Shown one piece after another: positions 38,491 to 46,744 of a DNA stretch of 64,000 nt. The notes beneath the pieces were generated by a model, which did no database searches, had not been told where the DNA came from, and saw nothing but the letters and a program-made list of their open reading frames with translations. The DNA comes from a filamentous cyanobacterium ESFC-1 (GTDB lineage: Bacteria; Cyanobacteriota; Cyanobacteriia; Cyanobacteriales; Spirulinaceae), in assembly GCA_000380225.1 (NCBI GenBank), contig KB904821.1, positions 3,154,744 through 3,218,743 on the forward strand, given 5' to 3'. Within the stretch, counting starts at the first letter, position 1. Each line of letters begins with the position of its first letter. The position numbers and the translations under genes were made by a program.

Positions 38491-38532
38491 CTATCTTAGT
38501 ATCTTGGGGATTGATTTATGATTCTGACGATT

Positions 38533-38789
38533 GAGGGGTGTGAACAGTAATGCAAAATCTTTTCAAAACTACGCAACCTTATTCATTTCTTGTGAAGCGA
38601 ATGGTTATCTGCGTAAGTATCTAAACACTTATTTTGCCAAAAACCACGGCGTAATAGTGCGCTGATAACGCAGCTATTAATGGCGGTAAGTTCTACCGTG
38701 TCAGCTTGTGGACTTGATAGTGCCGACACTACAAGGTTGAAGCAAGAAGTAAATATCAAAGGCATTTAGGTAGGTTTGAGTAAGTTTTA
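38533..38789 (+). repeat. 257-bp twin element, copy 1 (tnpB 3'-end-like)
   Basis: 255 of 257 bases match 45652-45908; the only differences are two C/T changes near the 3' end. It contains a long imperfect hairpin (38571-38614: ACGCA-ACC and GGT-TATC-TGCGT outer stems, ATTC/GAAT and TTC/GAA inner stems). A second possible stem is GTGTC/GACAC. One frame ends VSSTVSACGLDSADTTRLKQ plus EVNIKGI and a stop 20 bp before the right boundary, resembling C-termini of IS200/IS605 TnpB proteins. Another frame reads CADNAAIN, like the TnpB DxNAAxN motif. No transposase gene remains. Confidence 0.85.
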
Positions 38790-38941
38790 GAGAACGGAAC
38801 AACAACATCCCAAAGTACGCTAAACTGCGAATTATTGAAAATTAGAATTGTTTACTTAAGTTTACAATTAGCTAAAGTTGTTTTAAAAATTGAGTGGGTG
38901 CGGAACGCAGGTTGTTCAACTGCGACATCGTAAATCAGCCT

Positions 38942-39175
38942 ATGAACTATTCAATACCAACCAGTCCTGAAGAACTGATTGCTTTGCGACAAAAGCCTGT
39001 TAACGAGGAATTGATTGCGACAGCGATCGCGGGGGTGGTTCAAATTGCGCGATCGCAAAACCAATCCCTCGATCAACTCCGAGCCGAGGTCTTAGCCGAT
39101 CATAACTTGTTAGACGACGCACAACGGCAATGGTTGAGTAGTCTTGTTGTGGAAACTTGGCAGGCGTTGGGTTAA
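38942..39175 (+). CDS. Small conserved-looking cytosolic protein
   Basis: 77 aa from ATG 38942 (MNYSIPTSPEELIALRQKPVNEELIATAIAGVVQIARSQ); the upstream in-frame start at 38894 is less likely. The protein is predicted all-helical with no membrane segment. A HIP1 site is inside. I do not recognise the family. It is followed by a dense block of heptad arrays. Confidence 0.6.
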   Translation: MNYSIPTSPEELIALRQKPVNEELIATAIAGVVQIARSQNQSLDQLRAEVLADHNLLDDAQRQWLSSLVVETWQALG

Positions 39176-39214
39176 ACGAGTTAGTTGGTGTTATGTCAGA
39201 TTGGCTGGTTTTTG

Positions 39215-39356
39215 GGCAATCGGCAATCGGCAATCGGCAATCGGGTTTTTGGAATGACCAATGACCAATGACCAATGACCAATGACCAATGACCAATGAC
39301 CAATGACCAATGACCAATGACCAATGACCAATGACCAATGACCAATAACCAATGAC
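39215..39356. repeat. Two heptad arrays (GGCAATC and ATGACCA)
   Basis: 39215-39244 is about four GGCAATC units. 39253-39356 is about 14 ATGACCA units. The second array runs up to the stop codon of the oligopeptide-binding protein gene (39356-39358). Confidence 0.95.
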
Positions 39357-41008
39357 TAACTTTTCTCAATCCGCCAAAACGGAATGCTTTGGGCAGGATT
39401 GAGCATTACGCCTTCGAGATTATTCTGCACGAATACATACTCCTTGTTTTGCCACAACGGAACATAAGGCACATCTTCGGCTAAAAGACCTTGAATTTCT
39501 GTGAAAATCGCCTCCCGTGCGGCAGGATCGCTTTCTTGCCGTTGGGCTGAGATTAACTCATTCATGCGATCGCTATAGTAAAAAGACCCTTGATTTTGGG
39601 CGCTACCTTCAATACAGCCCCCAGCCGTTGACCCCTCGGTACAAGACAGCAATGGCTGAATGAAGTTGTCTGCATCCAGATAATCGGGATACCAGTTGGA
39701 CAAAGCCGCCGGATAAATACCGTCAGCGATATTTTTAAAGAAAGTTGCCCCTTCTACGGCTTTCGGCTCAAACTGAATGATACCGCCTAATTCTTGCTCG
39801 GCGTAAGCTTTGAGGGTCGAAGCCGTTAAACTACGAGGGGTTGAGCTAGAAGGATACCAAATTTCGACCATAACCGGATTATCCGCCGAAAAGCCTGCTT
39901 CTGTGAGTAATTCCTCGGCTTTTTCGGGGTTTGCGTCGCCATAAGCTGCCTCAAAGGTTGGCTCGGATACTTCAAACGCCGTGGGGATTAAGCTATAAAG
40001 GGGATCGGCTTGACCTTGGAAGACGCGATCGCGAATCAAGGCGCGATTCATAATCGACGCGATCGCCTGACGCACTTCAAGCTGATCTAACGGCGGTTGT
40101 TGGCGATTGAGTACCAAAAAGTTAACCGCAGTCCCAGGGGCTTCTATCGCTTGCCACTCCTCATTTTCTGTCCCTTCTAACAAGGTTTTCATCTGATCCG
40201 GGTCAAGGGATTGATAAGCAATATCAACTGCCCCGGTGCGAAAGGCATTAAACAGATTCGCAGAGTTATCCCCATAAATTTGCATATCTACACCACTATT
40301 GCGGGGTTCTTCCCCCCAATAATCTTCAAACGGTTCAAATTGCAGGGAATCGCTGCTAAATTCTGCTAATTTGTAAGGCCCCGTCCCGACAAAAATATTG
40401 GGACTAAATTCTCCTGCGCCAATGGTATAAGCTTCAGGAGACACCGCAGCCGTCCCGGTAAACGCCAGCAACGAGGGGAAAGCGGCAAAAGGCTGTTTGA
40501 GTTGGATTGTTAGCTCATCGTCCCCTGTTGCCTCTACATTGTCCACGACATCGCTTAACAGGAAAGACGGTTTGCCGCCATTTTCCATAAAACGCTGAAG
40601 GGAAAAAGCCATGGCTTCGGCATTAAAATCTGTGCCATCGTGAAAGACAACACCTTCGCGGAGAGGAATGGTATAAGTCAAGCCATCCTCGCTTACCGTG
40701 GGCATTTCCGTGGCCAGCAGGGGCATTAATTCCGTCGTCCCTGGTTCGTAAGTGTACAGGGTGTCACCGAGGTTATAAATCGCGTTTAATCCGGCGATTT
40801 CGTAACTATCGGCGGGATCGAGCGTGCGGGGTCGAATCGTCATCCCGACGGTGACGCGATCGCTCGATGAAGCAGTCTCAGAATCTACATTAGTTGCCGA
40901 CTGATTGCTATTGCAACCCACAACTAACAAAAAGCAAAGGCTAAATAAACTAAAGAATTTAGCGAAAGAACGAATTGGTTGAGAGAAAGGGAGAAACCCG
41001 TTTTGCAT
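39356..41008 (-). CDS. DppA/OppA-type peptide-binding lipoprotein (SBP family 5)
   Basis: 550-aa extracytoplasmic solute-binding protein of a peptide or nickel ABC importer. The N-terminus is a lipoprotein signal with lipobox VVGC near residue 32. Family blocks are DRVTVGMTIRPRTLDPADSYEI, GLTYTIPLREGVVFHDGTDFNAEAMAFSLQRF, FVGTGPYKL, and the C-terminal PLWQNKEYVFVQNNLEGVMLNP. No permease or ATPase genes are adjacent. The ligand is not predictable from sequence. Confidence 0.92.
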   Translation of the reverse strand: MQNGFLPFSQPIRSFAKFFSLFSLCFLLVVGCNSNQSATNVDSETASSSDRVTVGMTIRPRTLDPADSYEIAGLNAIYNLGDTLYTYEPGTTELMPLLATEMPTVSEDGLTYTIPLREGVVFHDGTDFNAEAMAFSLQRFMENGGKPSFLLSDVVDNVEATGDDELTIQLKQPFAAFPSLLAFTGTAAVSPEAYTIGAGEFSPNIFVGTGPYKLAEFSSDSLQFEPFEDYWGEEPRNSGVDMQIYGDNSANLFNAFRTGAVDIAYQSLDPDQMKTLLEGTENEEWQAIEAPGTAVNFLVLNRQQPPLDQLEVRQAIASIMNRALIRDRVFQGQADPLYSLIPTAFEVSEPTFEAAYGDANPEKAEELLTEAGFSADNPVMVEIWYPSSSTPRSLTASTLKAYAEQELGGIIQFEPKAVEGATFFKNIADGIYPAALSNWYPDYLDADNFIQPLLSCTEGSTAGGCIEGSAQNQGSFYYSDRMNELISAQRQESDPAAREAIFTEIQGLLAEDVPYVPLWQNKEYVFVQNNLEGVMLNPAQSIPFWRIEKS

Positions 41009-41095
41009 CGTAATATTAGGCTGTCAAGATTGGTACTTGGAAGCCTTACGATTGTAATCGATTAATTGGTGTTCCTTGAGGATTCGTTGTTTTTT

Positions 41096-41210
41096 GGGCA
41101 ATCGGCAATCGGCTCCTCGGCAGTCGGGGGAATGGGTTTTAGTCAATCGCAACCTGTTAAACGGGTTGAAATTTCGCCAAGCCGCTTGTAGGGGCTGGGT
41201 TTCCCAGTCC
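41096..41210. repeat. GGCAATC/GGCAGTC heptads and degenerate GC palindrome
   Basis: 41096-41132 has heptads GGCAATC and GGCAGTC. 41188-41210 is a weakened family F palindrome (GTAGGGGCTGGGTTTCCCAG). They lie in the leader of the peptide-binding protein gene. Confidence 0.8.
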
Positions 41211-41263
41211 AATCTATTTTTTTGAAGCTTATCGATTTTGGCGCGATCGCAACTAACCTAGCC

Positions 41264-41458
41264 TTATACTGCAACAGGATTGGCAGTCGGCGCGATCGCT
41301 CTTTGAGTCGGAACCGTTGTATTCTGCGCGATCGCAACCTGAGACGCAGCTTGAGCGCGTTTTACCGACACAGGACGATAAAACAGATTACTCATCACGC
41401 TCATCCACACCAAAAACAGAAAAATCGGAAATAACAAAGCATTAATCGCTTCAATCAT
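41264..41458 (-). CDS. Small single-span membrane protein
   Basis: 64 aa. One N-terminal transmembrane helix (INALLFPIFLFLVWMSVMSNLFY) and a basic then Ala/Thr/Pro-rich tail. AGGTG lies 10 bp before the ATG, giving a credible ribosome site. It resembles the size and layout of small photosynthetic-complex subunits, but I cannot assign it. HIP1 sites fall in the tail codons. Confidence 0.5.
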   Translation of the reverse strand: MIEAINALLFPIFLFLVWMSVMSNLFYRPVSVKRAQAASQVAIAQNTTVPTQRAIAPTANPVAV

Positions 41459-41530
41459 GGCAGCTTATCACCTGAAAAGACGACACAACAGGACATTAGA
41501 GTTATTTTAACGAAATCAAACCCAAAAGTC

Positions 41531-41965
41531 TCAAGCAAACAAATCTAACGGTAAATGCCCATAAGTGCCGCAAACTCGCTCATCTTCAGCCTGAAACGAC
41601 ACCAAAACGCCGCGATACTTCCCCTCATAGCCATCCGTCAAACAAGACTGCTTCTGACCGTTATATTTAATATAAATTGGAGCCGGACAAGCCTCTAAAT
41701 CCACCTTGTCTTGGTCGAAATCGTAACCCAACGCCGCCAGATATTGCGCCAAAGCCGTAAACCCTTCTTTAGCATTTGTGGCACACACCCCCAAATTTTC
41801 CCAATCAGCTAAATTGCAAAATAAGCGCAAAGCCGCCTGTAGTTGTTGTTTTTCGGTTTCTGATTCGATTTGCTTTGGCTCAATGCAGCTAAACGCCGCC
41901 AAACACTTTCTTGCGTCTGCAATCTCTTGTTGTTGATTATTATCTGAGGGGAAAGTCTGTTTCAT
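41531..41965 (-). CDS. DUF1824 family protein
   Basis: 144 aa cyanobacterial/plastid-lineage protein of unknown function. Family blocks are LRLFCNLADWENLGVCATNAKEGFTALAQYLAALGY, PAPIYIKYNGQKQSC, and the C-terminal DGYEGKYRGVLVSFQ ... CGTYGHLPLDLF. It is cytosolic and complete. Confidence 0.82.
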   Translation of the reverse strand: MKQTFPSDNNQQQEIADARKCLAAFSCIEPKQIESETEKQQLQAALRLFCNLADWENLGVCATNAKEGFTALAQYLAALGYDFDQDKVDLEACPAPIYIKYNGQKQSCLTDGYEGKYRGVLVSFQAEDERVCGTYGHLPLDLFA

Positions 41966-42005
41966 AAGTGACTGTTTTTTTGTTGTTATTTTATAGTATT
42001 TACAA

Positions 42006-42800
42006 TTAATTGCTATCTGTAGAAAGCACTTGGCGTACTTGTTCGACAGTCAACTCCAACGCCTCTGCAATCTGTTCGACGGTCAATCCCATGCTGCGTA
42101 AGCGAGGTACAGTTTCTAATCGTGCTTCTTGTTGCGCCTCTTGCCAGACGCGGGTTTGCCGTAAATCATCTAAGCTAAACATCCGCTCAATTTCCTCCCG
42201 ACGGGTTTGGGGTAACTTGTAAACTAAAATCCTTTCTACTAATTCTAGAAGCGACTGCTGTTGCGGGGCTTCTACTTCGACTCTAATCCGTTCGATTAGT
42301 CTTTGACCGAGGGCGATCGCTTCCGAGGGATCGGACACAATTAACTCAACCGTGGCGATTCCCGGTGTTGCCGACTCGGTATCCCCCAACTCATCTAAAT
42401 ATAAGCGCGTCACTCGCCCCGAACTGAGAATTTCGCTGTAACGCTCTGGGTTACTGTTGTCTGTGCGGCGATTGGGAAACAGGATTACGCCGCGCCAATC
42501 GTTGCTGAAGTCGGTTTTATCGAGATAAAGGAAGATTTCGCTGAAAAACCGCGAATACAAGTCAGGGTCGGGCTGAAACTGGACTTCAGCAAAGTAAATC
42601 GGTACGTCGGGGACTAGGGGTAAAAATACGCCATCAATACGAAACGAGAGTTGCTTAACTTCTACTGAGTCAAAGCGATAGTTCTGCGCTTGTTGAGGGG
42701 AAGCCTGGAGGAGTTCAAAGAAAGTCTGGGGGAAGGAGCGAAAAAGACGATAGAAGATCGTGTCGGTTTTCAAGATGCTCAACCTCAGTGACGCAACCAA
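42006..42800 (-). CDS. DUF2887/Rpn-like putative nuclease
   Basis: 264 aa of the cyanobacterial DUF2887 group, related to recombination-promoting PD-(D/E)XK nucleases. The core reads KTDTIFYRLFRSFPQTFFELL, FDSVEVKQLSFRIDGVFLPL, IYFAEVQFQPDPDLYSRFFSEIFLYL. The ending LRSMGLTVEQIAEALELTVEQVRQVL is a helix-turn-helix-like tail. The family often begins at KTDTIFYR, so the TTG at codon 10 is a possible start; the annotated ATG overlaps the Uma2 fragment by 16 bp. Confidence 0.82.
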   Translation of the reverse strand: MVASLRLSILKTDTIFYRLFRSFPQTFFELLQASPQQAQNYRFDSVEVKQLSFRIDGVFLPLVPDVPIYFAEVQFQPDPDLYSRFFSEIFLYLDKTDFSNDWRGVILFPNRRTDNSNPERYSEILSSGRVTRLYLDELGDTESATPGIATVELIVSDPSEAIALGQRLIERIRVEVEAPQQQSLLELVERILVYKLPQTRREEIERMFSLDDLRQTRVWQEAQQEARLETVPRLRSMGLTVEQIAEALELTVEQVRQVLSTDSN

Positions 42801-43168
42801 CTAAACAAATCATCGACAGTCAAAGCCAACTCAATCCCTGGTAATACAGGCAAAACCGCATCCCCTGTCAACTCTTGCGGTAATTGATTGGGCTGAAATA
42901 CCAATACTACCTTTTCCATTGGGTCAATCAACCAGCCCAACTGCCCCCCATTTCGCAAAATATGAAGCAAATTGCGCGTAACTCTGGTTTCCCCTTGATT
43001 GGGAGATCAAATTTCGATCGCCCAATGAGGAGCGAAATCAATACCTGTCGCGACAACCTCCCCTTGTTCGTCAACCGGAATGTTGTCGCGTTCGACGACT
43101 GAAATATCGGGAACGACAGAGCGATCGCGCACAATACATCTTACATTTTTATTTCTGGCTACCTCGGC
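42785..43168 (-). pseudogene. Uma2-family gene, broken by an in-frame stop and 5' loss
   Basis: On the minus strand one frame reads ARNKNVRCIVRDRSVVPDIS, VVERDNIPVDEQGEVVATGIDFAPHWAIEI, stop, SPNQGETRVTRNLLHILRNGGQLGWLIDP and on to LTVDDLFSWLRH. This is a typical Uma2 C-terminal half with a TGA at 43007-43009 where Leu is expected (IEILSP). The N-terminal third is absent. The split means the gene is almost certainly inactive. Confidence 0.82.
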
Positions 43169-43327
43169 TCAACTTCAATTTATCCTGAATGCCGATAAAA
43201 CCATCAATCCTCACTACCGACCCCCCAACACAAGTTAGGATAAAGAAAGTCACAGTATTCAATTCGCTAGTTTTTCACTCTGGCGTAAAACCCAAATTAT
43301 AGAACAGGTATTTTTTAAGAAAACACT

Positions 43328-44326
43328 ATGAACTTGGTTGCTCTCCAGAACACACTGGACAACATCTCCTTTGCCATCCTCTCGATTACCATGTTGGTGT
43401 ATTGGGTGCGGGTTGCCTTCCCGAAACTGCCGTATCTACAAACCTTGGGAACCGTCGGCATGGCGATCGCGAACCTTTGTATCGCTACCCTATTAGGAGC
43501 AAGATGGCTCGAAGCGGGCTACTTTCCCATTAGCAATCTTTACGAATCTTTATTTTTCTTGACTTGGGGCATTACCGCCATGCACCTCGTCGCCGAAACC
43601 ATGAGCCGCTCTCGCCTCGTCGGAGCCGTTACCGCCCCTCTCGCCATGGGAATCGTCGCTTTTGCCGCTTTGACCCTCCCGGCGGATATGCAAGCCTCAG
43701 CGCCCCTTGTACCCGCCTTAAAATCCAACTGGCTGATGATGCACGTTAGCGTCATGATGATTAGTTATGCGACCTTAATGGTGGGGGCATTACTCGCGAT
43801 CGCGTTTCTCATCGTTACTCGCGGCCAAGCCATCGAACTCCGGGGCAGTTCCGTCGGCACCGGGGGCTATCGCCTCAAAACCACCACCTCCGAATCCTTC
43901 TCGACTCCCGCGAACTTTACCACCGATACCCCTGGGGGTAGCACCATGGTTCTCAACCGCACCACCCCAGAAGTCAGCGTTACCCCCACCCTTTCTCCCC
44001 AACGCTTGACCCTAGCCGAAACCCTCGATAACATTAGCTATCGCATCATTGGTTTAGGTTTTCCCTTATTAACCATTGGCATTATTGCCGGGGCGGTTTG
44101 GGCCAATGAAGCATGGGGGTCATACTGGAGTTGGGACCCGAAAGAAACCTGGGCATTTATCACCTGGTTAGTCTTTGCGGCTTATCTCCATGCCCGCATT
44201 ACCCGCAATTGGCAAGGGCGACGACCTGCACTTTTAGCCGCGACTGGCTTTATCGTCGTCTGGATTTGTTATCTTGGGGTGAATCTACTGGGTAAAGGTT
44301 TGCACTCCTATGGCTGGTTTTTCTAG
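43328..44326 (+). CDS. ccsA: CcsA, cytochrome c haem-attachment protein
   Basis: 332 aa membrane protein of system II cytochrome c biogenesis. With Ccs1/CcsB it delivers haem to apocytochromes f, c6 and c550 on the luminal side. The tryptophan-rich WWD haem-handling motif is [18 protein letters not shown] near residue 258, with periplasmic His residues around it. About eight transmembrane segments are visible. The partner ccs1 gene is not in the window. Confidence 0.95.
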
Positions 44327-44422
44327 ATTGCTAATTGTTATCAAGGCAACTGGACAATTGAGCCAATAAAGCGCAAACTAACCCTTGATATTCAGTAAAA
44401 ACGTGAATGGGGTGAAACAACC

Positions 44423-45646
44423 GTGGATAAACAGTTCGAGCCACTTTCTGAAGGGGAAGTTTTATCAGTCAATGATTCGGCCAAATTCTTAATCGGACAT
44501 GGTACGTTTCGAGTTGGCGAATTAGCAGACGCACTCAGACAGCAACTCCTCGAAAAAAGTATTGGTGGCCTCACGGATACAACGCAAGATTGGTTTACCG
44601 AAGATGGCATTCAGTGTGAAGCCTTACGCTTCGGGGCGACGGGCTGGGAAAAAGGCAAGGTTAGGATTCATATCGAATTTTGCCCCAGTAATGGTGCAGC
44701 CCCTGAAATAACCCCTTCACCCCAAGCGGCGAAAGCTGCGGCCCCAGAAACAACGCCCTCAAGTGCTGACCAAACAGCCAGCGAGACTTTAGGGGCAGCA
44801 ACGGCAATGGCGGCGGAGGAATTAATCGAAACCCCCGCCCCCGAAACAGTTGTAGAAGAAGAAGCTGCCGATGATGTATTTGGCGAGTCAGAAAGCACCC
44901 CAGAAGCCGAAGCTGATGACTTGTTTGGTGGGGAAGAAGAAGATACCTCAGACGACTTGTTTGGTGAGTCAGAAAGCACCCCAGAAGCCGAAGCCGACGA
45001 CTTGTTTGGCGGGGAAGAAGAAGATGCTGCCGATGATGTATTTGGCGAGTCAGAAAGCACCCCAGAAGCCGAAGCTGACGACTTGTTTGGTGGGGAAGAA
45101 GAAGATACCTCAGACGACTTGTTTGGCGGGGAAGAAGAAGATACCTCAGACGACTTGTTTGGCGGTGGAGACGAAGATACTGCCGATGACTTATTTGGTG
45201 GGGAAGAAAGCACCCCAGAAGCCGAGGCCGACGATCTTTTTGGCGGTGGAGACGAAGATACTGCCGATGACTTGTTTGGTGGGGAAGAAAGCACCCCAGA
45301 AGCCGAGGCCGACGATCTTTTTGGCGGTGGAGACGAAGAAGAATCTGTAGACGATCTCTTTGGGGGTGATGACGAATCTTCCGAAGCCGACGATCTCTTT
45401 GGCGGTGGAGACGAAGAAGAATCTGTAGACGATCTCTTTGGTAGTGGTGACACGGAAGCCAAATCGGATGAGGGCGTTACCGATCCTTGGGGGAGTGACG
45501 AGGAATCTGCTGACGATCTGTTTGGTGGTGATGAAGCCGACGATCTGTTTGGGGATTCATCGGAGGAGTTAGATTTAGGTGATTCGTCCGACGAAAACAG
45601 CGACGGTGACGATATTTTTGATGATGTTTGGCAAGATATCAGCTAG
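44423..45646 (+). CDS. KGK-domain protein with a long acidic DDLFG-repeat tail
   Basis: 407 aa from GTG 44423. Residues 1-90 are a KGK domain (EGEVLSVNDSAKFLIGHGTFRVGELADAL ... FGATGWEKGKVRIHIEFCP), a cyanobacterial family of unknown function. A Pro/Ala linker follows. From about residue 150 the tail has 17 DD(L/V)FG motifs spaced 9 to 28 residues apart, in an extremely acidic Glu/Asp/Gly/Ser context, ending DDIFDDVWQDIS. It is predicted disordered. The repeat DNA is partly identical between units, implying recent expansion. A 257-bp twin element starts 6 bp after the stop. Confidence 0.88.
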   Translation: MDKQFEPLSEGEVLSVNDSAKFLIGHGTFRVGELADALRQQLLEKSIGGLTDTTQDWFTEDGIQCEALRFGATGWEKGKVRIHIEFCPSNGAAPEITPSPQAAKAAAPETTPSSADQTASETLGAATAMAAEELIETPAPETVVEEEAADDVFGESESTPEAEADDLFGGEEEDTSDDLFGESESTPEAEADDLFGGEEEDAADDVFGESESTPEAEADDLFGGEEEDTSDDLFGGEEEDTSDDLFGGGDEDTADDLFGGEESTPEAEADDLFGGGDEDTADDLFGGEESTPEAEADDLFGGGDEEESVDDLFGGDDESSEADDLFGGGDEEESVDDLFGSGDTEAKSDEGVTDPWGSDEESADDLFGGDEADDLFGDSSEELDLGDSSDENSDGDDIFDDVWQDIS

Positions 45647-45651
45647 TCATA

Positions 45652-45908
45652 GAGGGGTGTGAACAGTAATGCAAAATCTTTTCAAAACTACGCAACCTTA
45701 TTCATTTCTTGTGAAGCGAATGGTTATCTGCGTAAGTATCTAAACACTTATTTTGCCAAAAACCACGGCGTAATAGTGCGCTGATAACGCAGCTATTAAT
45801 GGCGGTAAGTTCTACCGTGTCAGCTTGTGGACTTGATAGTGCCGACACTACAAGGTTGAAGCAAGAAGTAAACATCAAAGGTATTTAGGTAGGTTTGAGT
45901 AAGTTTTA
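45652..45908 (+). repeat. 257-bp twin element, copy 2
   Basis: Second copy of the element at 38533-38789, same length and orientation, 7119 bp apart. It begins 6 bp after the KGK gene stop and ends 66 bp before a truncated beta-barrel gene. Identity stops sharply at both ends, so the boundaries are those of a defined mobile unit. Confidence 0.9.
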
Positions 45909-45973
45909 TAAAACGGCTGCAACCAAATTATCCTGAAAACGTCCTAAACCGCAGCTAAACAAAAGCACAATAA

Positions 45974-46282: not shown

Positions 46283-46744
46283 AATTTTTTTCCAAACCTT
46301 CCAGATTGGGTCAAGTTTGACCCGTATTAAGGAATGGTAGATGCACCCTGGTTACTTACCCCTTCAAGCGTAGTATATATTGGTTTTGCCAATTCGCGAT
46401 CGCTTGAGGGGATTTTTTTTGGCAAAAATTACAGATTTATCATCATCCATAACACCAAAATCGAACTTTGAAGGTTATTCTCTCGGCAAAAAATATGCCT
46501 TGACGGGGGTGGAGATGGATGCCTAACCTAGGCTATGACTTAAATTGATGAAGGAAGCAAAACTTTGTTCTTCTCCCTCTCGCTAAGATATTTTTTGTAT
46601 GTGTGTGTATAAATAGTTACAAAAATGAAATGTATAACTCAATAAACTTCAGTAAAAATATATTTTTTGCAGTTGCCATTCCTAAACAGCACATGATAAA
46701 CTTTTTTAATATCTCATACGCCAAAGAAATAAATACCTATATTT
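46283..46744. other. AT-rich intergenic region
   Basis: 462 bp with one HIP1 site (46396-46403) and T-rich stretches. TGAGGGGATTTTTTTT at 46405-46420 may end transcription. The base composition becomes noticeably AT-rich from about 46.5 kb, at the edge of the orphan-gene patch. No gene seen. Confidence 0.5.

Follow-up and report, generated by a model that had tools for sequence, protein, structure and literature searches.

A miniature IS607-family element with a conserved, putative TnpB guide-RNA scaffold in the filamentous cyanobacterium ESFC-1

The genome of the filamentous cyanobacterium ESFC-1 (Spirulinaceae; assembly GCA_000380225.1, 5.63 Mb) contains, in a 64,000-nucleotide stretch of contig KB904821.1 (hereafter the window; positions 3154744-3218743 of G000:C1 in our numbering, in which G denotes genomes, C contigs and L loci), two near-identical repeats without a transposase gene, lying 7.1 kb apart in the same orientation and losing similarity abruptly at their ends. 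The question raised by this locus is what kind of element these repeats represent, and why one segment of such a small element should be so well preserved. The answer that we consider likely is that they belong to a deletion-derived miniature family of IS607 type that lives on borrowed TnpA and TnpB proteins, and whose RNA core has been kept by selection for retention.

The element, its ends and its family

A first-pass annotation, made from the letters of the window, had described two same-strand, near-identical repeats with abrupt ends, and this description is confirmed: a left-end pattern of 25 bases, searched for with as many as 3 mismatches tolerated, has 2 matches in the window, one for each copy, versus 0 expected from shuffled sequences. 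A DNA search of the whole genome with the repeat returns 13 places, of which 7 are near-full-length copies (91-100% identical) and 6 are pieces of the left part. The seven copies have unrelated flanks, measure 263 bp (262 in two of them), and all start with GGGG and end with AACGG. As the base preceding GGGG is A in some copies and G in others, the "GA" common to the left sides of the two copies in the window is flank. Thus, while the repeat as first delimited is real, its left edge included flanking bases and its right edge fell 8 bp short, and 2 of the 4 mismatches between copies 1 and 2 (element positions 220, 229, 256, and 258) lie in these 8 bp. The revised coordinates are collected in Table 1.

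Table 1. Features of the two element copies, in window positions.
Feature	Position	Strand	Remarks
Miniature element, copy 1	38535..38797	+	GGGG...AACGG, IS607-type, 263 bp; edges set from 7 genomic copies
Miniature element, copy 2	45654..45916	+	263 bp; 259/263 identical to copy 1
Left end, including degenerate tnpA start	38535..38627	+	77.7% identity over 94 bp to the L084 left end
Scrap of tnpB middle	38621..38659	+	LNTYFAKNHGVIV; 69% identity to L219 TnpB residues 262-274
Residual tnpB 3' frame with stop	38680..38769	+	MAVSSTVSACGLDSADTTRLKQEVNIKGI; 58% identity over 45 columns to the L130 TnpB C terminus, E 4e-11
Putative guide-RNA (omegaRNA) scaffold core, copy 1	38682..38753	+	Element positions 148-219; covariation, low variability
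Putative scaffold core, copy 2	45801..45872	+	Element positions 148-219; identical to the copy 1 core
Hairpin P1	38684..38698	+	38684-38688/38694-38698; 5/5 pairs changed on both sides
Multi-step hairpin	38705..38746	+	38705-38709/38742-38746, 38713-38716/38732-38735, 38720-38722/38727-38729
Right end	38770..38797	+	GTAGGTTTGAGTAAGTTTTAGAGAACGG; motif in 20/30 related tnpA loci and 31 stretches of cyanobacterial records
Predicted guide, right flank of copy 1	38798..38817	+	AACAACAACATCCCAAAGTA; position inferred from the IS607 right-end RNA (PMC10711439)
Predicted guide, right flank of copy 2	45917..45936	+	CTGCAACCAAATTATCCTGA; position as for copy 1 (PMC10711439)

The miniature element itself has no tnpA, but a serine-recombinase tnpA is found in an element sharing its left end. 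At locus L084 of the same genome, a homologous left end leads into an intact frame of 200 amino acids, followed by a tnpB that is cut off after approximately 122 amino acids, and in copy 1 a CTG occupies the position of the ATG in the degenerate tnpA start. The intact TnpA (G000:C1:362250-362849) carries, according to Pfam, a MerR-type helix-turn-helix (HTH) domain (PF00376, residues 5-41) followed by a resolvase domain (PF00239, residues 57-186). With the HTH placed before the resolvase domain, the protein has the inverted arrangement known from IS607 TnpA. This order is also described in PMC4058570. A second copy of the L084-type tnpA start, broken, is present at L010/L086. GG is found at both termini of all 7 copies (GGGG at the start, CGG at the end), at all 13 left junctions, those of fragments and relatives among them, the left GG run is preceded by a purine, and no flank repeat suggestive of target duplication was seen, by eye, at the 7 copies; insertion at GG with no duplication of the target is the known behavior of IS607 elements (PMC6188088). 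Inverted repeats are lacking at the termini. The sequence TCAAACCTAC, a candidate TnpA-binding motif, is present in the left end of L005 and, inverted, in its right end, and the left ends of L001-L003 carry it with one mismatch.

With regard to the right end, the L084 TnpA was searched against 388 genomes of the order, with matches in 257, and of the 30 best loci inspected 20 possess a repeat-like right end. These include loci with intact tnpA and tnpB (L123, L125, L128, L129, and L130) and loci with tnpA but no tnpB (L122, L131, and L138); at the other 10, a right end of this type was not found or the tnpA frame was not recognised by the script (L134, L140, and L142). Among named genome records, 31 stretches contain an exact match to the right-end pattern, every one of them from a record with a cyanobacterial title; in 12 of these the script recognised a tnpB-like frame upstream, and some of the remainder sit at the edge of a contig. 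In a plasmid of Microcystis aeruginosa NIES-2481, a 79.8% match to the last part of the element lies beneath the annotation of a TnpB-family gene. The full-length relatives envisaged in the first-pass annotation, ending in the same sequence, are thus present among related cyanobacteria. In two Oscillatoria records (L090 and L100) we also observed a right-end/guide-RNA piece without the left end, its right-hand flank (GGTAAGAGATTC) being repeated on the left, as if by an unusual insertion route.

The left end that heads a MerR-HTH/resolvase tnpA, the right end shared with TnpA-TnpB elements, and the GG termini place the family in IS607, whose transposase is a serine recombinase, and not in IS200/IS605 as first proposed. 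A miniature element of the latter type, moved by a Y1 (HUH) TnpA, might be argued for from the sharing of TnpB by both families, from the Y1 transposase genes of this genome (PF01797, 5 rows, 4 over the cut-off), and from the derivation of two other remnants (L159 and L162) from an IS200/IS605-like tnpB. However, the left end and the tnpA start belong to a serine-recombinase element, which already contradicts this proposal, and the right end common to IS607 elements and the GG termini of all copies, without target duplication, speak against it as well; we have rejected this origin and give it almost no credence.

The interior of the element holds, in this order, the degenerate tnpA start, a scrap from the middle of tnpB and the tnpB 3' end, and all 7 copies share the same joints, which argues for a single deleted ancestor. 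The scrap, which includes TYFAKNHGVIV, matches L219 with an E of 0.03 on a small local database, and its DNA matches, at element positions 92-126, in L057. Judging from these sequence remnants, the miniature family, at 263 bp versus about 1.8 kb for IS607 insertion sequences, appears to be an internal-deletion product of an IS607-family TnpA-TnpB transposon. The earlier notion of a miniature element without a transposase is supported, the element now being known in several copies, with an orphan tnpB 3' end and a conserved RNA of the guide type.

The RNA core: structure and constraint

The TnpB-like reading frame of the first-pass annotation does exist, but it makes more sense as RNA than as protein. 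In L123-L125, tnpB stops inside hairpin P1, so that most of the conserved part lies outside the gene, and the RNA downstream stays conserved; a protein function for the residual frame was rejected on these grounds. The structure was assessed in an alignment (A1) of 18 sequences, the 2 element copies and 16 relatives, at least 7 of which lie beside a tnpB frame (L069, L123, L124, L127, L128, L129, and L133). These were used from 40 distinct sequences, after 4 near-identical element copies, 13 sequences judged chance matches, the near-duplicates L075, L125, L130, and L132, and L021 (a genuine 3' end of tnpB, with 3 mismatches) had been dropped. RNAalifold finds 17 pairs, 14 of them with pair-keeping changes on both sides, including 9 of the 12 pairs of the multi-step hairpin; as the sequences were picked by a pattern in the loop and the inner stem, invariance there is partly selected, with P1 and the outer stem outside the pattern. 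On this structure, 94.4% of the alignment cells keep their pairing, a figure that drops to 79.0% under shuffling and to 31-57% after sliding of one side. Both-side changes are found in 44 cells, a value reached by 0 of 500 shuffles, for which the corresponding number is 11.8. The multi-step hairpin noticed at first reading exists, at about 42 nucleotides (element positions 171-212). Folding of the 257 nucleotides originally delimited gave nothing more stable than shuffles (z -0.51; 60 of 200 at least as stable), and thus the single-sequence fold is uninformative and support for the structure comes from covariation.

A covariance model, R1, built without any of the tnpB ends of this genome that it matched, was run on the whole genome at E up to 1 and returned 19 matches. 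The top matches are the 7 elements (98.5-101.1 bits, E about 1e-18), followed by 12 weaker ones (30.6-39.5 bits, E 1e-4 to 0.011), 10 of which lie on the same strand as a TnpB zinc-ribbon match, from 8 bp inside to 16 bp beyond it, the remaining 2 being L159 and L162, remnants of a different tnpB. Because of the covariation, and because the R1 matches abut tnpB ends in this genome, the conserved part is identified, from comparative evidence, as the putative scaffold of a TnpB guide RNA. This kind of guide RNA is absent from Rfam, no family being matched at E up to 5 in 38500-38830 and the RAGATH-18 covariance model being unmatched. IS607 TnpB uses an RNA from the right end of its element, in which a fixed base of the right flank belongs to the scaffold (PMC10711439). 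Genome G297 (C1) yields dozens of weak R1 matches (36.5 bits), L210 among them, that are nearly identical to one another and suggest a very high-copy element; in L210, the one stretch fetched, the script saw no same-strand tnpB-like frame.

The core, delimited by structure and not by variability, is the quietest part of the element. Among the 7 copies, 1 of 72 columns is variable in the core versus 36 of 191 outside (Fisher p 8.8e-5; here and below, p values assume independent columns while the copies are related, and are indicative only), and without L007, the most divergent copy, the figures are 0/72 versus 20/191 (p 0.0027). When a 72-column window is moved around the element as a circle, 8 of 263 placements are as quiet, the 8 linear ones starting at 141-148, that is, at the core. 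Even the element ends, needed for transposition, are more variable than the RNA core. R1 also led to a second miniature family, present in G046 (5 copies, L200-L204) and G118 (2 copies, L208-L209) and with no same-strand tnpA or tnpB frame in the fetched stretches; it has 2/70 variable columns in the core versus 36/275 and 38/275 outside in comparisons between genomes (p 0.011 each).

These data bear on the simplest alternative, that of a plain IS607 deletion derivative moved by TnpA, in which the scaffold is a functionless passenger next to the right end. IS607 transposition can proceed with TnpA alone (PMC6188088), which favors this alternative, but a passenger should vary at least like the ends, whereas the core is the least variable part, and the same bias recurs between species in the second family; we regard the alternative as unlikely, although it is the most serious of those considered. 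The distribution of changes instead suggests selection on the guide scaffold after the loss of tnpB. Gene conversion limited to the core is a possible cause of the low variation, with no obvious reason for it.

Families of this guide-only type apparently arose on more than one occasion, in this genome and in G046/G118. The second family is also of IS607 type, about 342 bp long, with approximately 150 nucleotides of conserved non-coding sequence, not in Rfam, between the left end and the core. L159 (G000:C1:4984711-4984825, minus strand) and L162 (2432869-2432982, plus strand) present a second kind of tnpB-less miniature in the ESFC-1 genome, with tnpB pieces related to L089/L163 (LSRKLVDENQV ... 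GVLACGDDVRPKLE), a guide-RNA scaffold that has been kept, and a terminal palindrome that gives them an IS200/IS605-like look.

Retention in trans and the evidence against it

How might a scaffold be selected in an element without proteins? In the reading that we prefer, the transposase and the RNA-guided nuclease are probably both borrowed from relatives, acting in trans. An IS607 TnpA would excise the element at its GG ends and insert it at another GG. Each inserted copy could then yield an omegaRNA, the guide of which would be the host sequence just to the right of the element, and the TnpB of a full-length relative, together with this RNA, would cut the resealed empty site on the sister chromosome, at which repair would copy the miniature element back. 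Conservation of the core after the loss of tnpB is proposed to result from selection for being retained in this way. The TnpB target motifs reported, AGGAG or GAGGG (PMC11061315), fit the GG target in a general way, and PMC11870625 discusses how TnpB may help transposons to be retained and contribute to gene drive on plasmids.

A number of observations weigh against this reading. An intact TnpB of the cognate clade was not found, either by local BLAST (23 TnpB-like open reading frames from 30 of 45 loci) or by a search of the whole genome: the best full-length TnpB is only 40% identical to the L130 TnpB, and the sole close piece (66%), at 362876-363205 beside the intact tnpA, is truncated. The scaffolds at the tnpB genes of this genome score at most 39.5 bits, versus at least 98.5 for the elements. 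A promoter and terminator scan found nothing within the element, with regard to promoters by a consensus that does not cover other promoter types. The absences of an intact cognate TnpB and of a promoter-like site also favor the passenger alternative. An empty site was not found in 12 relatives of the same family, searched with seven joined flanks; in the genome itself, a 52-base match of 83% (857958-858009) extends over the L003 joint, but as it falls in a repetitive flank it was not counted. A comparison of one G118 copy with the other yields no significant bias (0/70 in the core versus 6/275 outside, p 0.61), and the independence assumed in the p values counts here as well. It may be, then, that the element is a recent orphan, selected while its TnpB was still present. 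As a general observation on this genome, it has 45 TnpB zinc-ribbon matches but only 5 rows each of PF01797 and PF00239, so that most of its TnpBs look orphaned.

Could the copies have stopped moving and now serve the host as small regulatory RNAs, which might, for instance, direct a nuclease-dead TnpB to genes in the vicinity? An RNA core conserved without a neighboring tnpB is compatible with this, and TnpB-derived guide-RNA regulators (TldR) are known (PMC13418256). However, the unrelated flanks predict seven different guides, giving the look of a mobile family and not of one regulator, and no nuclease-dead TnpB paired with the scaffold has been identified, none having been searched for; we consider a regulatory role very unlikely.

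As an extension of the preferred reading, retention by borrowed proteins, we put forward only tentatively that the element is a hyper-parasite without proteins, selected for its guide RNA alone, borrowing TnpA to jump and TnpB to be copied back.

Surroundings, known systems and implications

The surroundings of the two copies contain three further features. Directly before copy 2, at 44423-45646, lies a gene for an acidic protein of 407 amino acids with tandem repeats of the DDLFGGEE type, and about 420 bp to the right of the same copy (46335-46420) Rfam recognises NsiR1, nitrogen-stress-induced RNA 1 (46.5 bits, cut-off 39). Shortly after copy 1, on the minus strand (39000-39338), a frame with tandem repeats of VIGHWSLVIGHWSL probably reflects a short tandem repeat of the DNA.

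IS607 elements, TnpB guide RNAs, and miniature inverted-repeat transposable elements (MITEs) are all already known. Palindrome-associated transposable elements (PATEs) of IS200/IS605 are non-autonomous multi-copy elements mobilised in trans. The family described here resembles bacterial MITEs in the same respects, being non-autonomous, multi-copy, and, by our reading, mobilised in trans, but it differs from MITEs and PATEs in lacking terminal inverted repeats and target duplication, in depending on a serine recombinase rather than a DDE or Y1 transposase, and in its cargo, a guide-RNA scaffold under apparent constraint. With IS607 insertion sequences it shares the GG termini without target duplication, the homologous ends and the right-end guide-RNA scaffold, but it is a 263-bp miniature without tnpA and tnpB. 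The IS607 TnpB reRNA/omegaRNA (RAGATH-18, PMC11061315; ISXfa1, PMC10711439) is likewise a structured RNA located at the 3' end of tnpB or immediately beyond it, and in both cases the RNA reaches the right boundary of the transposon (PMC11061315; PMC10711439); unlike RAGATH-18, the element RNA has no Rfam match and no adjacent tnpB. Guide RNAs without tnpB are already implied by the report that 64% of RAGATH-18 RNAs (10,258/16,029) adjoin IS607 TnpBs, as over a third do not (PMC11061315).

Our literature search, which did not reach most subscription papers, found no paper on guide-only IS607 miniature elements. Guide-only derivatives of IS200/IS605 or IscB reportedly exist, and therefore we do not claim the idea as unpublished.

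TnpB is thought to help its own transposon to stay in place. If the scaffold alone is selected in a relative without proteins, then TnpB-based retention acts in trans, and strongly enough to shape a 263-bp element. If so, TnpB guide RNAs would also spread without an adjacent nuclease gene and would be missed by annotation based on tnpB. Cyanobacteria carry several chromosome copies, and if the hyper-parasite reading is true, such an element could behave, within a single cell, as a gene drive without proteins. The family presents a natural, small, and testable construct for the study of IS607 retention or gene drive.

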